Source: an uncultured Bacteroidales bacterium (lineage in GTDB: Bacteria; Bacteroidota; Bacteroidia; Bacteroidales; UBA932). Taken from it: DNA of 64,000 bases. The position numbers and the translations under genes were made by a program. Of the stretch, positions 3,178 to 47,548 are shown piece after piece; positions within the stretch are counted from its first letter, which is position 1; each line of letters starts with the position of its first letter. Location: the NCBI GenBank assembly GCA_944322815.1, contig CALUQB010000008.1, forward strand, positions 17,935-81,934, read 5' to 3'. The notes beneath the pieces were generated by a model. The model was given only the letters and a program-made list of their open reading frames with translations, was not told the DNA's origin and did not search any database.

Positions 3178-4584
3178 ATGAAAATGACCGATCAAGGAAT
3201 TACCAGGGCACTGCCGCTTCTCGCAGCAGCCGCAGTGCCGGCTGCATTGCACGCCGAGGCCCCTGCGGATGCCTCCAGGCGTGCCGGAGACAGGCCGAAC
3301 ATCATTTATATCATGACGGACCAGCAATGTGCGACGGCGATGAGCTGTGCCGGAAACATGGACGTATCGACCCCGAATATGGACAGACTGGCCGAACACG
3401 GTATCAGGTTCGTGAATGCATATTGCGCCATGCCTCTGAGCGGACCGGCGAGAGGGGCGATGTTTACAGGTTACATGCCGAGCGAGACCGGTATCATAGA
3501 GAATGATATCCCGATTCCTGATTCCCTGCAGAACAGGACTCTTGGTACTCTCGTTGGTGAGGCCGGGTACGACTGCGCCTACGCCGGCAAGTGGCATGTA
3601 CATACTGTCGATCTGCCGTCGGAGTTCGCTTTCGGATTCAGGAATCTGCACGGGCACACCGACATAGGTCTGGCTGAAGCGTGCATAGACTATCTCAGGG
3701 AAGATCACGACAGCCCGTTCTTTCTCGTGGCTTCGTATATAAACCCTCATAATATCTGCGAGTTTGCCAGGAACCAGAATACTCCGCTCGCACGTATCCC
3801 GGATTTTACTCTTGAAGACTGTCCGACCCTTCCGGCCAATTATGCCGTGAATCCGTATGATGCTTCTGTCCTGCAGTTCGAAAAGCGTCAGAGTTACGCT
3901 CTGTATCCATCGCAGGATTTCAGGCCTGATGACTGGAGACGCTATCGTTATGCCTATTACCGTCTGGTAGAGGCCGTGGATGCGGAGATAGGTAAGATCA
4001 TAGATGAAATCGACAGGCAGAATCTCTGGGAGAATACTGTGATCATCTTCACAAGCGACCATGGTGACGGCTGCGGTGCACATCAGTGGAACCAGAAGAC
4101 CGTACTTTATGAAGAAGTGGCCAATATTCCTCTGATCGTGTGTCTGCCTGGCGGAAAGAATGCCGGTACAGTGCTGCCCCAGCTGATAAACAACGGTGTG
4201 GACCTCATGCCTACTGTCTGCGACTGGGCCGGTGCAGAAGTGCCGGAAGGCAGGTCAGGTCTCAGTATCAGGGCTGTAGCGGAATCGGGAGATGCTTTTC
4301 TTCCGCTGCGTGACTATGTGGTGACGGAGACGAACTTCAACCAGACAGCCGGAACTCTCGGCTGGATGGTCCGCACTCCCAAGTACAAATACGTCCTCTA
4401 TGACAAGGGGCAGTATCGAGAACAGCTTTACGATATGGACACCGACAGGGGCGAAATGGTGAATCTGGCAGTGGATGCACGCTATGCCGACATAGTGAAA
4501 GAGCATCGTGCCATGCTTCGCGAATGGATGGAAACGCATCCCGGTCCAGGCCGCGCCCGCCATTTCCGCTTCATCCCGGAATAG
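3178..4584 (+). CDS. Secreted S1-family sulfatase with Ser-type active site
   Basis: A 468-residue alkaline-phosphatase-fold sulfatase that hydrolyses a sulfate ester, probably from a glycan, in the periplasm. A signal peptide is clear (short basic start, then an Ala/Leu-rich stretch LLAAAAVPAALHA). The metal-binding start of the fold is NIIYIMTDQQ. The nucleophile region reads MPLSGPARGAMFTGYMP, i.e. S-x-P-A-R, so the formylglycine would be made from serine, which in anaerobes needs the radical-SAM enzyme anSME. KWHVH and TSDHGDGCGAH are the other active-site blocks. The start at 3178 gives a proper signal peptide and sits just behind a TAAATTTG promoter box. The gene is not next to the glycosaminoglycan locus, so its substrate is open. 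It is followed by a dispersed repeat. Confidence 0.88.
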   Translation: MKMTDQGITRALPLLAAAAVPAALHAEAPADASRRAGDRPNIIYIMTDQQCATAMSCAGNMDVSTPNMDRLAEHGIRFVNAYCAMPLSGPARGAMFTGYMPSETGIIENDIPIPDSLQNRTLGTLVGEAGYDCAYAGKWHVHTVDLPSEFAFGFRNLHGHTDIGLAEACIDYLREDHDSPFFLVASYINPHNICEFARNQNTPLARIPDFTLEDCPTLPANYAVNPYDASVLQFEKRQSYALYPSQDFRPDDWRRYRYAYYRLVEAVDAEIGKIIDEIDRQNLWENTVIIFTSDHGDGCGAHQWNQKTVLYEEVANIPLIVCLPGGKNAGTVLPQLINNGVDLMPTVCDWAGAEVPEGRSGLSIRAVAESGDAFLPLRDYVVTETNFNQTAGTLGWMVRTPKYKYVLYDKGQYREQLYDMDTDRGEMVNLAVDARYADIVKEHRAMLREWMETHPGPGRARHFRFIPE

Positions 4585-4616
4585 TTTTCCAATCAGCTCA
4601 TCCTGCTGACGCATAT

Positions 4617-4827
4617 TAACGTCAGTTCGACGAATTATTTTACTCAGTACCAGAGACTTCGTCGAACTGACGTTACGATTTCTTCGAAATCTCTTCTTAA
4701 TCTACGTGTCACCCCTCCTAAATCCTCCCCTACGTATGGGAGGACTTGCCTACGGACTCGTAAAACGAATCCTCTACAGAGGTAGTTCTCTGAAATTCAC
4801 TGCGTTCTTTTCATCGAACTCACGTTA
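4617..4827 (+). repeat. Dispersed 211-bp structured repeat, copy A
   Basis: This intergenic segment recurs at 45732-45943 in the same orientation, with only about a dozen differences. It starts TAACGTCAGTTCGACGAA, contains the inverted copy TTCGTCGAACTGACGTTA about 40 bases on, and ends with a slightly diverged inverted copy TTCATCGAACTCACGTTA, so the ends are terminal inverted repeats. Inside are the dyads GATTTCTTCGAAATC, TCCTCCCctacgtatGGGAGGA, a GGAcTCGT/ACGAATCC stem and CCTCTacAGAGG. No coding potential is convincing. It lies just downstream of a plus-strand gene, as copy B also does. It could be a MITE-like element or a structured 3' UTR/RNA module. Confidence 0.9.
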
Positions 4828-4911
4828 TATTAATAAAGAGGACGACCCAAAAGGAATTACTCCTCTTTGAGAATTGAATATTTGAAACCGGACTCCATCA
4901 GGAGTACGAAT

Positions 4912-4952
4912 AAAAAGAGGGCGAGTCTGACTTTTGACCCGCCCTCTTTTTA
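4912..4952 (-). terminator. Rho-independent terminator of ppdK
   Basis: A stem AAAGAGGGCGaGTC / GACcCGCCCTCTTT is followed on the minus strand by a T run, ending 14 bases beyond the ppdK stop codon. The flanking A and T runs make it usable from the plus strand too. Confidence 0.8.
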
Positions 4953-4965
4953 TACCGGTGTCCGG

Positions 4966-7695
4966 TTATTTCCCGGCCTCAGCCTTTACTACGGCCTGTG
5001 CTGCAGCCAGACGTGCGATAGGCACGCGGAACGGCGAGCATGAAACATAGTTCAGACCGATCTTGTAGCAGAATTCCACTGATGCAGGATCACCTCCGTG
5101 CTCTCCGCAGATACCGCATTTGAGGTCAGGACGGGTCTCGCGGCCTGAAGTCACTGCATAGTCGATCAGTTTGCCTACGGCCTTGGTATCCAGAGTCTGG
5201 AACGGATCATTGTCCAGAATCTTGTTCCCGAGATAGTCACCCATGAATGTTCCGACATCATCGCGGGAGAAGCCGAATGTCATCTGAGTCAGGTCATTGG
5301 TTCCGAATGAGAAGAACTCGGCGGTCTTGGCCATCCTGTCGGCAGTCAGAGCGGCACGAGGAATTTCTATCATTGTACCGAACTTATAGTCGATATGCTG
5401 GTTAGTGGCAGCTTCCACCTCGGCTTTTACCTTCACGCAGATAGCTTTCTGGAACTTCAGCTCCCTCTGTGATACGGTCACCGGAATCATGATCTCAGGC
5501 ATAGGATGGAGTCCCTCCTCCTGAAGTTCTGCGGCAGCAGTGAAGATGGCCCTGAACTGTGTCTCGGAAATCATCGGGTAAGTCACATGGAGACGCACGC
5601 CCCTGTGTCCCATCATCGGGTTCACCTCATGGAGGGATGCACCCCTCTTCTCGATTTCACCCTCGCTGATTCCCAGTTCATGGGCGAGTTCTTCTTTCTT
5701 GTCTTTCGTCTGAGGAACGAACTCGTGAAGAGGCGGGTCCAGAAGACGGAATGTCACAGGCTTGCCGTCCATGACTTTCATGGTACCTTTCACAGATGCC
5801 TTGATATATGGTTCAAGCTCATCCAGTGCAGCCCTTCTTTCTTCGTCAGTCTTCGAGAGGATCATCTTGCGGAGCTTGGCGAGAGGGGTCTCTGCGTTCT
5901 TCCCGTAGAACATGTGCTCGATGCGGAATAGTCCGATACCTTCAGCTCCGAAACTGAGAGCCCTCTGGGCATCCTCAGGAGTGTCGGCATTTGTCCTGAC
6001 ACCGAGCTTGCGGTATTTGTCCACTATATTCATGAACTTGATGAAGCGAGGGTTTTCGGAAGCGTCCATCGTATCGATTTCGCTGGCATATACATAGCCT
6101 TTGGCTCCGTTCAGGCTGACGATGTCACCTTCGTGGATTTCGGCTCCGCTCTTGAACCTGGCTACTTTCTTCTCCAGGTCTATATGCATGCTCTCACAGC
6201 CTACGATGCAGCATTTGCCCCATCCGCGGGCTACCAGGGCTGCATGGGAGGTCATTCCTCCTCTCTGTGTGAGGATACCTGCCGCAGCACGCATTCCCTC
6301 TACGTCTTCAGGGGATGTCTCTTCGCGGATCAGGATAGTCTTGATGCCTTTGGCATTGGCCTTCATGGCCGCCTCAGAGGTGAAGACAGCCTTTCCTACT
6401 GCACCGCCCGGACTTGCAGGCAGACCGTTGGCTATCACATCGGCCTTTTTCTCGGAAGCGGAGTCGAGAATAGGGTGGAGGATTTCGTCAAGCTGTGAAG
6501 GGGATACCCTCATGATGGCTGTCTTTTCATCGATCATGCCTTCGTCCAGCATGTCCATGGCCATATTGAGTGCAGCCAGACCGGTCCTCTTGCCGATACG
6601 GCACTGGAGCATCCAGAGTTTGCCGTCCTGGATGGTGAACTCTATGTCCTGCATGTCGTGGAAGTGGTTCTCCAGATGGACCCTGATGGCGTCCAGCTCC
6701 TTGTAAACCTCAGGCATGGCCTTTTCGAGGGATTCGAGCTTCTCGTTGTGCGGGTTCTTCGTAGCCTCGTTCAGAGGGTTCGGGGTACGGATACCTGCCA
6801 CGACATCTTCTCCCTGAGCGTTGATGAGCCATTCGCCGTAGAACTTGTTGTCACCGTTGGCCGGATTCCTGGAGAATGCCACGCCTGTAGCCGAAGTGTT
6901 GCCCATGTTTCCGAACACCATGGACTGTACGTTCACTGCAGTTCCCCAGTCATCAGGAATTTTCTCTATCTTCCTGTATGCTATGGCGCGTTTGCCGTTC
7001 CATGACTTGAACACGCCGCCGATGCTGCCCCAGAGCTGTTCTTCCGCCGAATCAGGGAATTCTACACCGAGAACTTCCTTGATTCTCACCTTGAACTTGT
7101 CGCAGAGTTCCTTCAGTTCTTCGGCCGTGATGTCTGTATCGGACTTGTAGCCCTTGGCCTTTTTCAGCTCTTCCATCATCCTGTCCAGTTGCTGGCGGAT
7201 ACCCTGACCGTCCTCAGGCTCGATTCCTTCGGCTTTTTCCATGACCACATCGGAATACATCATGATGAGACGGCGGTATGCGTCATATACGAAACGCGGA
7301 TTTCCTGTCTTTTTGATCATTCCTGGAATGGTAGCAGAGCAGAGTCCTATGTTCAGGATAGTGTCCATCATACCCGGCATGGAACTGCGGGCGCCGGAAC
7401 GGCAGCTTACCAGAAGCGGATTATCCTTGTCACCGAATTGCATGCCCATTATCTTCTCGGTAGCTCTCATCGCTTCCTTGACTTCGGCTTTCAGAGCTTC
7501 CGTATAACCGCCTCCGAGCTGATAGTACTCCGCACAGCATTCGGTGGTGATGGTGAAACCTGCCGGTACCGGGATGTTCAGCCTGCACATTTCAGCCAGG
7601 TTGGCTCCCTTTCCGCCGAGCAGATTACGCATAGTACCGTCTCCTTCAGCAGTCTTGCCTCCGAAACGGTAGACCCTTTTCTTGTTATCTTCCAT
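4966..7695 (-). CDS. ppdK: Pyruvate, phosphate dikinase
   Basis: A 909-residue cytosolic enzyme interconverting pyruvate + ATP + Pi and phosphoenolpyruvate + AMP + PPi, the PPi-linked glycolytic/gluconeogenic step common in anaerobic Bacteroidales. The domain order is complete: an N-terminal ATP-grasp region (GGKGANLAEM, SCRSGARSSMPGMMDT), the central swivelling phosphohistidine domain with catalytic His in GGMTSHAALVARG (about residue 480), and a C-terminal PEP-binding TIM barrel (FRIEHMF, GTNDLTQMTFGFSRDD) with the catalytic Cys in KCGICGEHGGDP. Length is within the normal range (about 875-910). It is transcribed alone and ends at a strong hairpin terminator. This is one of the clearest assignments in the window. 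Confidence 0.97.
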   Translation of the reverse strand: MEDNKKRVYRFGGKTAEGDGTMRNLLGGKGANLAEMCRLNIPVPAGFTITTECCAEYYQLGGGYTEALKAEVKEAMRATEKIMGMQFGDKDNPLLVSCRSGARSSMPGMMDTILNIGLCSATIPGMIKKTGNPRFVYDAYRRLIMMYSDVVMEKAEGIEPEDGQGIRQQLDRMMEELKKAKGYKSDTDITAEELKELCDKFKVRIKEVLGVEFPDSAEEQLWGSIGGVFKSWNGKRAIAYRKIEKIPDDWGTAVNVQSMVFGNMGNTSATGVAFSRNPANGDNKFYGEWLINAQGEDVVAGIRTPNPLNEATKNPHNEKLESLEKAMPEVYKELDAIRVHLENHFHDMQDIEFTIQDGKLWMLQCRIGKRTGLAALNMAMDMLDEGMIDEKTAIMRVSPSQLDEILHPILDSASEKKADVIANGLPASPGGAVGKAVFTSEAAMKANAKGIKTILIREETSPEDVEGMRAAAGILTQRGGMTSHAALVARGWGKCCIVGCESMHIDLEKKVARFKSGAEIHEGDIVSLNGAKGYVYASEIDTMDASENPRFIKFMNIVDKYRKLGVRTNADTPEDAQRALSFGAEGIGLFRIEHMFYGKNAETPLAKLRKMILSKTDEERRAALDELEPYIKASVKGTMKVMDGKPVTFRLLDPPLHEFVPQTKDKKEELAHELGISEGEIEKRGASLHEVNPMMGHRGVRLHVTYPMISETQFRAIFTAAAELQEEGLHPMPEIMIPVTVSQRELKFQKAICVKVKAEVEAATNQHIDYKFGTMIEIPRAALTADRMAKTAEFFSFGTNDLTQMTFGFSRDDVGTFMGDYLGNKILDNDPFQTLDTKAVGKLIDYAVTSGRETRPDLKCGICGEHGGDPASVEFCYKIGLNYVSCSPFRVPIARLAAAQAVVKAEAGK

Positions 7696-45731: not shown

Positions 45732-45943
45732 TAACGTCAGTTCGACGAATTATTTTACTCAGTACCAGAGACTCCGTCGAACTGACGTTACGATTTCTTC
45801 GAAATCTCTTTACCTTTTACGTGTCACCCCACCTAAATCCTCCCCTACGTATGGGAGGACTTGCCTACGGATTCGTTCCACGAATCCTCTAAAAGAGGTA
45901 GTTCTCTGAAATTCACTCCGTTCTTTTCATCGAACTCACGTTA
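45732..45943 (+). repeat. Dispersed 212-bp structured repeat, copy B
   Basis: Second copy of the element at 4617-4827, same orientation. Differences from copy A are concentrated in predicted loops or make stems better: GGATTCGT/ACGAATCC is perfectly paired here, and CCTCT/AGAGG has an altered loop. That hints at selection on structure rather than on sequence. The 3' end (TTCATCGAACTCACGTTA) runs directly into the 27-bp direct repeat that starts the ATPase cassette, sharing one base. Short frames through this stretch are not credible genes. Confidence 0.9.
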
Positions 45944-45989
45944 TTTATCCGATTCTTTATCGCTAACTCAATATTTTTATGAGTTAGCG
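45943..45989 (+). repeat. Left palindrome / 27-bp direct repeat bracketing the ATPase gene
   Basis: Bases 45943-45969 are identical to 47481-47507. The last part folds back on itself as CGCTAACTC-N11-GAGTTAGCG (45961-45989). Beyond this the right-hand half is degenerate compared with the copy after the gene. It lies upstream of the gene's -7 box. Confidence 0.85.
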
Positions 45990-46011
45990 CGCAAAAATCG
46001 CGAATTTTTCC

Positions 46012-46019
46012 TATTTTTG
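46012..46019 (+). promoter_or_regulatory. -7 box of the ATPase/nuclease gene
   Basis: TATTTTTG fits TAnnTTTG and lies 21 bases before the ATG at 46041, immediately downstream of the left palindrome. This leaves a very short leader and argues against coding sequence extending further upstream. Confidence 0.6.
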
Positions 46020-46040
46020 TACTATGAAAATAGGAAAGCG

Positions 46041-47453
46041 ATGGCAGATACAATTATTGGCAGAGCCACAGAACGGGAAATCTTGCGCCGGTGTATGGAC
46101 TCTGGCGCTCCGGAATTTATAGCCATTTACGGCAGGCGCAGAGTCGGCAAGACATTTCTGATACGTCAGTTTTTCAATGATGCTTTCAGTTTTTATTCCA
46201 CCGGTATCTATCAGGGCACGAAGAGAGAGCAGCTTGGAGCATTCTGTCGTCAACTCAAATATTATTCAGGACGGGAATGGGGGATTCCGAAAGACTGGTT
46301 TGAAGCTTTTGCTCAGCTGAAGGAGTATCTTGAATCTGTCGAAGGTACTGCTCCTGTAGTAGTCTTTCTTGATGAACTGCCGTGGATGGACACGCAGAAA
46401 AGCCGTTTTGTCAAGGCTTTAGAGTATTTTTGGAATTCATGGGGAGCATCGAACGACCGTCTGAAACTGGTAGTTTGTGGCAGCGCAACTACATGGATGC
46501 GTGAAAATGTGCTTTCAGACAAGGGTGGTCTGTACAACAGGACTACGCGCAGCATCTACCTGGCTCCTTTTACCTTGCATGAGACAGAGCAGTACCTCCT
46601 TTCGCGCGGATTCATCTGGAACCGGTATCAGATAGCCGAGTGTTATATGGTTCTCGGTGGTACACCTCTTTATCTCCGGATGCTTGAACGGAATCAAAGC
46701 CTTTCACAGAATGTGGACAGCCTCTTTTTTATCCCTAATGCACCGTTGGCAAGAGAATATGATTTTCTGTTCCGTTCGCTGTTCAAGGACGCTGTCTTGC
46801 ATCGTCAGGTTATAGAAACGTTGGCAGGCAAAGCCTCGGGAATGACGCGTGAAGAGATAGTGAAAGCTACAAAAATTGATGACGGAGGAACATTGACCAA
46901 GGTCTTGCGGAACTTGTGCGATTGTGATTTTATCCGTCAGTATACTGCTTTCGGCAAGAAGGAGCGCGGTATAATCTTTCAATTGACTGATTTGTTTTCC
47001 CTGTTCCACTTGCGGTATGTCAAAGGATATCGCGGACAGGATGAACATCATTGGCAGAATATGATAGATTCACCGTCCCGCAGGGCTTGGAGCGGATATG
47101 CTTTTGAGCAGCTGTGTTTGCACCACATTCGTCAGATCAAGAAGAAACTGGGTATCAGCGGTGTACAAAGCGATGTCTGTGCTTGGAAAGGAGAAAACTG
47201 CCAGATAGATCTGCTGATAGACCGCAGAGACCAGACTGTCAATCTCTGTGAGATGAAGTTTTCTCAGGGTGAGTTTGAAATTACCAGGCAGTATGATGAA
47301 CAATTGCGTAGGCGCGCGGAAATATTCCGCACAGCTACCAAGACCCGCAAGGCTCTGCATAAGACATTTGTCACTACATATGGGTTGAAAAAAAACATGT
47401 ACAGCGGGAATATTCAGAGTGAGGTGGTGCTCGATGATTTGTTCGAAGTGTAA
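46041..47453 (+). CDS. AAA-type ATPase with C-terminal PD-(D/E)XK nuclease-like domain (archaeal-ATPase/DUF234 type)
   Basis: 470 residues. N-terminal ATPase: Walker A GRRRVGKT (31-38) after IIGRATEREILRR, Walker B VVVFLDELPWMD (about 106-117), sensor-like LVVCGSATTWM. A winged-helix linker (about 265-330, with SGMTREEIVKATKIDDGGTLT) follows. The C-terminal domain has GENCQIDLLID and VNLCEMKFS: D390, E404 and K406 in the spacing of a PD-(D/E)XK active site, so it may be a nuclease. Such proteins are multi-copy in many archaea and Bacteroidetes and their function is not established; a link to mobile elements has been proposed for the archaeal ones. A longer frame to 45861 runs through repeat B and is rejected. 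It is bracketed by a direct repeat and lower in GC than its neighbours. Confidence 0.88.
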   Translation: MADTIIGRATEREILRRCMDSGAPEFIAIYGRRRVGKTFLIRQFFNDAFSFYSTGIYQGTKREQLGAFCRQLKYYSGREWGIPKDWFEAFAQLKEYLESVEGTAPVVVFLDELPWMDTQKSRFVKALEYFWNSWGASNDRLKLVVCGSATTWMRENVLSDKGGLYNRTTRSIYLAPFTLHETEQYLLSRGFIWNRYQIAECYMVLGGTPLYLRMLERNQSLSQNVDSLFFIPNAPLAREYDFLFRSLFKDAVLHRQVIETLAGKASGMTREEIVKATKIDDGGTLTKVLRNLCDCDFIRQYTAFGKKERGIIFQLTDLFSLFHLRYVKGYRGQDEHHWQNMIDSPSRRAWSGYAFEQLCLHHIRQIKKKLGISGVQSDVCAWKGENCQIDLLIDRRDQTVNLCEMKFSQGEFEITRQYDEQLRRRAEIFRTATKTRKALHKTFVTTYGLKKNMYSGNIQSEVVLDDLFEV

Positions 47454-47480
47454 ATCTGAAAAAACGCCTTTTTGCATACT

Positions 47481-47548
47481 ATTTATCCGATTCTTTATCG
47501 CTAACTCTGAAAAATAAGGAGTTACCGATAAAAAATCGGATATTTTTC
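47481..47548 (+). repeat. Right palindrome / 27-bp direct repeat after the ATPase gene
   Basis: A nearly perfect inverted repeat: arm TATCCGATTCTTTATCG-CTAACTC (47485-47507) pairs with GAGTTAC-CGATAAAAAATCGGATA (47519-47542) around an 11-base loop and ends in TTTTT, so it can terminate the ATPase transcript. Its first 27 bases repeat exactly at 45943-45969 on the other side of the gene. Confidence 0.85.

Follow-up and report, generated by a model that had tools for sequence, protein, structure and literature searches.

A PDC-S27 ATPase-nuclease gene between matching palindromes in an uncultured Bacteroidales bacterium: a possible compact mobile unit

In the IS200/IS605 and RAYT/REP systems, a single gene is accompanied by hairpins that lie near its ends and are specific for the enzyme that it encodes. 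Integron cassettes consist of a single ORF and a palindromic recombination site, which gives a palindrome-gene-palindrome order and empty sites with one palindrome. In Tn7-like elements, TnsC is an AAA+ protein and TnsA a restriction-type nuclease.

A gene that joins the latter two activities in one protein has so far been met in a different context. According to the accessible part of a defence survey, PDC-S27 is an ATPase fused to a domain of the PD-(D/E)XK superfamily, which was proposed by a guilt-by-embedding approach, is a prevalent putative defence candidate (3503 in Archaea and 4562 in Bacteria) and belongs to the PDCs, most of which still await experimental validation (PMC12988326). 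What is available of this survey and of a second paper treats PDC-S27 as a putative defence gene, and palindromic ends, unit boundaries and gene-less sites go unmentioned in those parts (PMC12988326; PMC13356809). No description of palindromes or mobility for the PDC-S27/DUF234 family was found in the literature outside subscription papers and preprints. As discussed below, a gene listed as an anti-virus candidate may be a small self-moving element instead of, or besides, a defence gene.

The gene lies in a window (the whole stretch of DNA that was analysed) of 64,000 nucleotides from contig CALUQB010000008.1 of an uncultured Bacteroidales bacterium. Its features, in window positions, are as follows.

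45732 to 45943, no strand: MITE-like repeat of ~212 bp, inserted at the outer edge of the left repeat, outside the unit
45942 to 45969, plus strand: left copy of the exact 28-nt repeat, from sequence comparison and genome search
45950 to 46000, no strand: left palindrome, with 21-nt arms that are 81% complementary and a 9-nt loop
46012 to 46019, plus strand: TATTTTTG, presumably a Bacteroidota-type -7 promoter box, between the left palindrome and the ATG
46041 to 47453, plus strand: gene for a 470-aa AAA+ ATPase (ATPase_2) fused to a PD-(D/E)XK nuclease domain, PADLOC PDC-S27
47480 to 47507, plus strand: right copy of the exact 28-nt repeat, from sequence comparison and genome search
47484 to 47542, no strand: right palindrome, with 24-nt arms that are 92% complementary and an 11-nt loop

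The initial annotation had read a P-loop ATPase and a D-ExK nuclease-like motif in the ORF at 46041-47453, and profile matches and invariant residues bear out both. ATPase_2 (PF01637) is matched at E 5e-14 (53.1 bits for a Pfam cut-off of 33.2), DUF234 (PF03008) falls just below its cut-off (21.2 vs 22.5 bits) and the PADLOC profile PDLC04984 (PDC-S27) is matched at E 4.9e-200, with residues 4-468 on positions 3-473 of 474. The catalytic motifs are intact, Walker A (GRRRxGKT) and Walker B (FxDE) being invariant in a 22-member alignment, as are the nuclease residues E356, Q388, D390, E404 and K406. No Pfam family other than ATPases and DUF234 is matched up to E 0.001 (five matches), the PDB profile matches include 2fna (3.7e-9), VchTnsC (E 1.6e-4) and ORC4 (0.0025), and searches of PHROGs and NCBIfam with the window protein gave no family in either. 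A relationship to TnsA-TnsC was considered and rejected, the PDB match to TnsC being weak, near that to ORC4 and weaker than that to 2fna.

A 27-bp direct repeat around the gene, with each copy entering a hairpin that is near perfect on the right and has one degenerate half on the left, had been pointed out from the sequence. It is present and exact over 28 nt (45942-45969 and 47480-47507), with one copy on each side of the gene, while the 69-nt stretches 45942-46010 and 47480-47548 are 78% identical. Each copy is the 5' half of a palindrome, whose arms are 92% complementary on the right (47484-47507 and 47519-47542) and 81% complementary on the left (45950-45970 and 45980-46000); the downstream match starts 26 nt past the stop codon. 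A chance match is unlikely, since the upstream/downstream match score of 69 in the window compares with a maximum of 38 in 394 mismatched upstream/downstream pairs. In the genome's own assembly (94% complete), there are no further copies of the 27-mer at up to three mismatches. The left palindrome is directly upstream of TATTTTTG at 46012-46019, which we take to be a Bacteroidota-type -7 box. Given this closeness to the promoter, autoregulation is likely whichever of the readings discussed below is adopted. On its other side, the left repeat abuts the end of the ~212-bp MITE-like repeat at 45732-45943, which also occurs at 4617-4827 of the window (ends TAACGTCAGTTCGA and TCGAACTCACGTTA). This repeat has at least 26 matches of at least 200 nt in its own genome, with 40 of 87 candidates scored, plus half copies, and several copies have their two halves ~95 bp apart. 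The neighbours of the window gene are presumably a SusE-like gene and a peptidase gene.

Matches to the protein at E <= 0.001 were found in 63 of 150 related genomes, some of which have distant ATPases only (21-28% identity), and a genome scan yielded at least 580 relatives, of which 80 were kept. Their contigs are labelled, for example, Bacteroidales, Lachnospiraceae, Fibrobacter, Treponema, Propionibacteriaceae and Flexilinea, labels that may be wrong because many of these are MAG contigs. Bracketing of the gene by matching repeats turned out to be a recurring form. In a first set, repeats matching within 160 nt up- and downstream flank 21 of 72 close homologues, none of 13 distant ATPase homologues and 2 of 256 neighbour ORFs; in an enlarged set, up/down matches flank 39 of 159 homologues vs 9 of 533 neighbour ORFs and 20 of 2000 mismatched pairs, the homologues not being phylogenetically independent and a few duplicates being kept. 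An upstream palindrome with a score of at least 14 is associated with 50% of 161 homologues vs 5% of 533 neighbour ORFs, and a strong downstream palindrome with 21% of 162 homologues vs 11% of neighbour ORFs, at thresholds of our own choice and with most loci coming from fragmented MAGs. Seven loci with identical genes (L186, L036, L211, L064, L075, L126 and L143) were removed before the count of 39/159. The counts keep L009/L188, which have 100% identical proteins, and the assembly duplicates L052 and L053, both of which are included in the 39/159 and in the 21/72; the set of 72 also kept the pairs L010/L036, L063/L064 and L074/L075. Loci without a stop codon or with too-short flanks were left out of the flank tests and, owing to internal stops, L007 and L015 were left out of alignment A1 and L165 out of A4.

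Across the family, the repeat sequence varies from gene to gene. The idea that other copies would be framed by the same 27 bp had to be abandoned: the one other member in the same genome (51% identity) has no matching repeat pair (score 15), and in L150, which at 80% is the nearest homologue of the window gene, the pair is of another sequence altogether and again matches up- and downstream. The 39 pairs comprise 21 direct and 6 inverted ones, with 12 undecided in orientation, and the inverted ones led us to reject direct target duplication as a general explanation that would by itself account for the pair. On either side, the match overlaps a called palindrome in 24 of the 39, and in 30 the downstream match sets in at most 12 nt from the stop codon. 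Tandem arrangement is frequent among the upstream palindromes, which immediately precede or span the -7 box (as judged by eye).

Gene and upstream palindrome are inherited together, and the arms of the palindrome have changed in a compensatory way. The similarity of upstream regions goes in step with that of the proteins down to ~65-70% identity, and downstream sequence is mostly lost below ~90% identity. Among 27 independent pairs, there were 27 two-sided arm changes, of which 22 preserved the base pair vs ~3.3 expected by chance; one-sided changes broke a pair 73 times, 16 of them to G-T, and covariation according to structure tools is weak in two small alignments.

Gene and upstream palindrome stay together in close copies, the flanks of which differ. 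Six pairs are alike in both and unrelated beyond: L066/L068 (99% nucleotide identity), L078/L080 (92%), L049/L050 (91%), L022/L023 (90%), L017/L019 (85%) and L027/L031 (82%). Their boundaries are sharp, with left limits at -70 to -118 (-179 for L078/L080) and right limits at -10 to +105. In the enlarged set, 13 pairs share 82-99% nucleotide identity. In 8 of them, similarity stops between 70 and 197 nt before the ATG and between 10 nt before and 172 nt after the stop; the five pairs with long common flanks (L170/L173, L127/L144 and three among L154-L156) are at one locus or are binning duplicates. The left limit falls within 5 nt of the script-called palindrome edge in 18 of 48 pairs and farther off in 30, partly because of tandem palindromes. 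A stretch upstream of L066/L068 is orthologous (84.5%), so this pair may represent a shared site with rearranged surroundings. In L049/L050, L017/L019 and the L171/L177/L178/L179 group, similarity ends just past the final D-L-F codons, and the last residues and the stop differ; the gene end is common to both partners in L066/L068, L022/L023 and L078/L080, so variable C-termini are not general. As for terminal repeats as unit ends, the boundaries lie near palindrome and stop in several pairs, with a right copy in only 39 of 159 and with varying orientation. An ORF resembling a tyrosine integrase ends immediately before the units of L078 and L080, and L078 has another integrase-like stretch downstream; we take these ORFs to be integrase-like from their motifs.

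The empty site with a single palindrome that the cassette interpretation predicted was found in the relative G475, where both flanks of the window site are matched (86% and 89%, ~140 bp apart) around one palindrome and no gene. This palindrome has the same ATTTATCCGATTCTTTATCGCTAACTC, and the site keeps promoter-side sequence down to TATTTTTTG and also the stretch leading to TATTTTTG. In loop and right arm the palindrome is like the right window copy and on its promoter side it is like the left one, a mixed likeness that would not result from a simple crossover of the two window copies. In G041, judged from two neighbouring genes, neither gene nor palindrome is present at the window site.

Other loci offer both kinds of gene-less site. 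With both flanks compared, G605 and G600 have neither the gene nor either of the palindromes at the L039 site, and the same is true of G600 at the L055 site (flanks 78 bp apart); such palindrome-less sites fit insertion of a whole unit. G033 has no counterpart of a larger stretch that includes the unit of L051. From the left flank only, L140 carries, for L138, a palindrome (84% over 64 nt) beside the orthologous flank, and so do, for L020, G081 and G589, which are nearly the same in sequence; ~2.2 kb farther on, G081 also contains a broken 5' portion of a unit of this kind. One flank, with no palindrome seen, was matched in G435 and G478 (L023), G588 (L015), G559 (L025), G447 (L017), G054 (L011), G042 and G002 (L051), G036, G064 and G003 (L046) and G605 (L055). 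By locus, gene-less sites with a palindrome number four and those without nine, the window having one of each, with orthology defined by blastn flanks, often one only, as for most sites without a palindrome. Outside this tally are L264, L266, L267 and L274 (filled copies cut at contig ends), L265 (filled), L273 (right flank match only), L279/L280 (other gene) and L269 (different homologue nearby). For the copies on a Phocaeicola plasmid and in fecal phage, no near-identical relative usable as a source of empty sites was found. When the filled sites of L039 and of the window were set by eye against their gene-less counterparts, no clear short target duplication emerged. Since gene-less sites occur with and without palindrome, palindrome and gene seem to have been gained together, and the palindrome can exist alone.

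A comparable situation is found in the Wolbachia phage WO, one record of which (MN180249) carries the gene behind two tandem hairpins. In the six relatives fetched out of 12 other WO records (L132-L137), compared over both flanks, there are hairpins of the same type and no gene, and two of the six have another mobile gene at that place. These ACCGC(C/G)G...GCGGT-type hairpins (one to three; L127 3880-4000 and the gene-less L132-L137) separate the minor capsid gene from the following one. L140 has an array-like arrangement at ~3750-5600, with a solo L138-type palindrome, the L140 gene and a solo L145-type palindrome, as if different units had landed side by side. Close to the place occupied by L023 in G082, G589 carries another PDC-S27 gene (L269; G589:C9, 2914-4320), which is oppositely oriented and has palindromes of its own at either end, so that this place may be a hot spot for insertion.

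The best real within-genome pair is 61% identical (93 pairs, 54 listed loci; assembly duplicate excepted), so this is no ordinary multicopy IS, and a replicative IS is disfavoured on the same figure. Such a lack of recent duplicates would suit conservative movement as well as spread by other vehicles; 136 plasmid and 7 phage records contain relatives, which are mostly distant. Dispersal was followed with 13 upstream regions (10 from G144 and 3 from G055) against G144, G055 and G019, the latter without a query of its own. Matches below E 1e-5 lie beside the genes themselves, in G144 (10 copies, 40 of 132 candidates scored) as tandem or downstream copies, with the exception of a tandem pair on C69 of G144, which has no homologue in the 4 kb fetched. 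Solo palindrome copies do occur (G475, L140, G081 and G589). REP-like dispersal as a rule was rejected, the 27-mer being found twice in its own genome and the other matches, C69 apart, beside the genes themselves. One L138 hairpin pattern matched nothing in 295 order-level genomes and, among viral contigs, the L138 contig only, a null that is uninformative because L140 carries a variant.

Taken together, the results speak for a compact mobile unit that has palindromic cis sites private to it and that its own enzyme may move. The cassette of the initial annotation survives in its recurring form, its empty site and its gene-palindrome linkage and loses its framing by the same 27 bp and its always-direct pairs (6 of 39 are inverted). 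To the fuller reading we give about even odds: a compact mobile unit of low copy number, with palindromes that serve as its ends and as its operator and are probably acted on by its own enzyme. Such a unit of ~1.5-1.7 kb would comprise palindrome(s), promoter and ORF and end at or near the stop codon, with a second palindrome copy after the ORF in about a quarter of cases. The palindrome would be the cognate cis site of the encoded protein, with a double role as operator (it abuts or overlaps the promoter) and as unit end or attachment site. The AAA+ domain would form ATP-dependent oligomers on it and the PD-(D/E)XK domain would cut there, releasing or joining the unit without amplifying it. 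Movement could be by cut-and-paste, or by a circle of palindrome and ORF that integrates beside a resident palindrome, and the outcome would be palindrome-gene-palindrome, or a single palindrome after loss. Protein binding, cutting, autoregulation and movement by the unit's own enzyme are what we infer. It is also conceivable, and we advance this tentatively as somewhat short of probable, that PDC-S27 genes are the transposase or recombinase genes of a new class of minimal elements, non-amplifying, with private fast-evolving palindromes and with single-palindrome scars or landing sites.

Several observations count against a mobile unit: (i) 120 of 159 homologues have no up/down match at threshold, (ii) the downstream palindrome is only twice as frequent as at neighbour ORFs (21% vs 11%), (iii) flanks are long and common in 5 of 13 pairs and the left limit is off the palindrome edge in 30 of 48, (iv) 73 arm changes break a pair and covariation is weak, (v) orientation is varied, no target duplication is established and, unlike with active insertion sequences, recent within-genome duplicates are absent, (vi) gene-less sites are commoner without palindrome (nine loci and, at the window site, G041, vs four) and (vii) promoter overlap is equally expected of a mere operator, and the family is listed as a defence candidate. 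The main rival of the mobile unit is an autoregulated defence gene spread by other means. An anti-phage PDC-S27 gene would have palindromes as operators and be carried around by phages, plasmids and homologous recombination, which is possible although we doubt it; equally doubtful are its corollaries that the downstream copy is a second operator (for loop repression or insulation) and that gene and operator alone are recognisable because they alone are under selection. The PADLOC match at 5e-200, the description as a prevalent putative defence candidate in the accessible part of the survey and the occurrence on plasmids and in phage records are what a defence gene would lead one to expect, as are palindromes that occur in tandem and abut or overlap the promoter and the absence of recent intragenomic copies. 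However, breaks at 91-99% nucleotide identity (L066/L068, L078/L080 and L049/L050) are too sharp for loss of neutral similarity, downstream copies mostly begin at the stop codon and the window neighbours (presumably SusE-like and peptidase) are not defence genes. The possibility that the repeat is merely the gene's own operator, already considered in the sequence-based reading, agrees with an upstream palindrome that abuts or overlaps the promoter (by eye), but some gene-less sites keep one palindrome, as G475 does.

Gene-less alleles with a single cognate palindrome, together with an active-looking nuclease, would also suit a homing or addiction element, in which the nuclease cuts such alleles and recombination copies the gene in. 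We find this improbable, as the palindrome is missing from other gene-less alleles, movement must have been non-allelic for pairs at unrelated loci and the filled site still has a palindrome and would need protection. More improbable still are ordinary rho-independent terminators or signals of neighbouring genes that match by chance or local duplication: the L011 match lies in a hairpin that resembles a terminator and recurs on either side, which places some of the 39 in this class, but the excess over neighbour ORFs and mismatched pairs, the compensatory arm changes and an upstream copy that lies before a promoter and not behind a gene end all argue against it.

If the unit is self-moving, PDC-S27 survey counts mix defence with mobile DNA, part of the counted single-gene defence is mobile DNA, and the palindrome is a ready substrate for testing the action of the enzyme. 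Should the gene serve defence, its operator is likely to be the palindrome, which then still shows how the gene is kept silent.

How, then, does the unit compare with known systems? The closest is PDC-S27 itself, a PADLOC candidate and the same protein family as the window gene, with a full-length match. Classical insertion sequences have recent multiple copies per genome, whereas PDC-S27 units do not (best pair 61%). IS200/IS605 and RAYT/REP are alike in having one gene between hairpins, but they use a Y1/HUH enzyme, none of which is among the Pfam matches of the window protein, and REP palindromes are scattered, whereas those of PDC-S27 are not in the genomes tested. The combination of AAA+ and nuclease recalls TnsA/TnsC of Tn7, in the window as one fused protein with no further gene. 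With integron cassettes, PDC-S27 units share the palindrome-gene-palindrome order and empty sites with one palindrome, but their palindromes differ from gene to gene and apparently have no shared core, and their enzyme, which is not a tyrosine recombinase, is inside the unit, unlike in integron cassettes.
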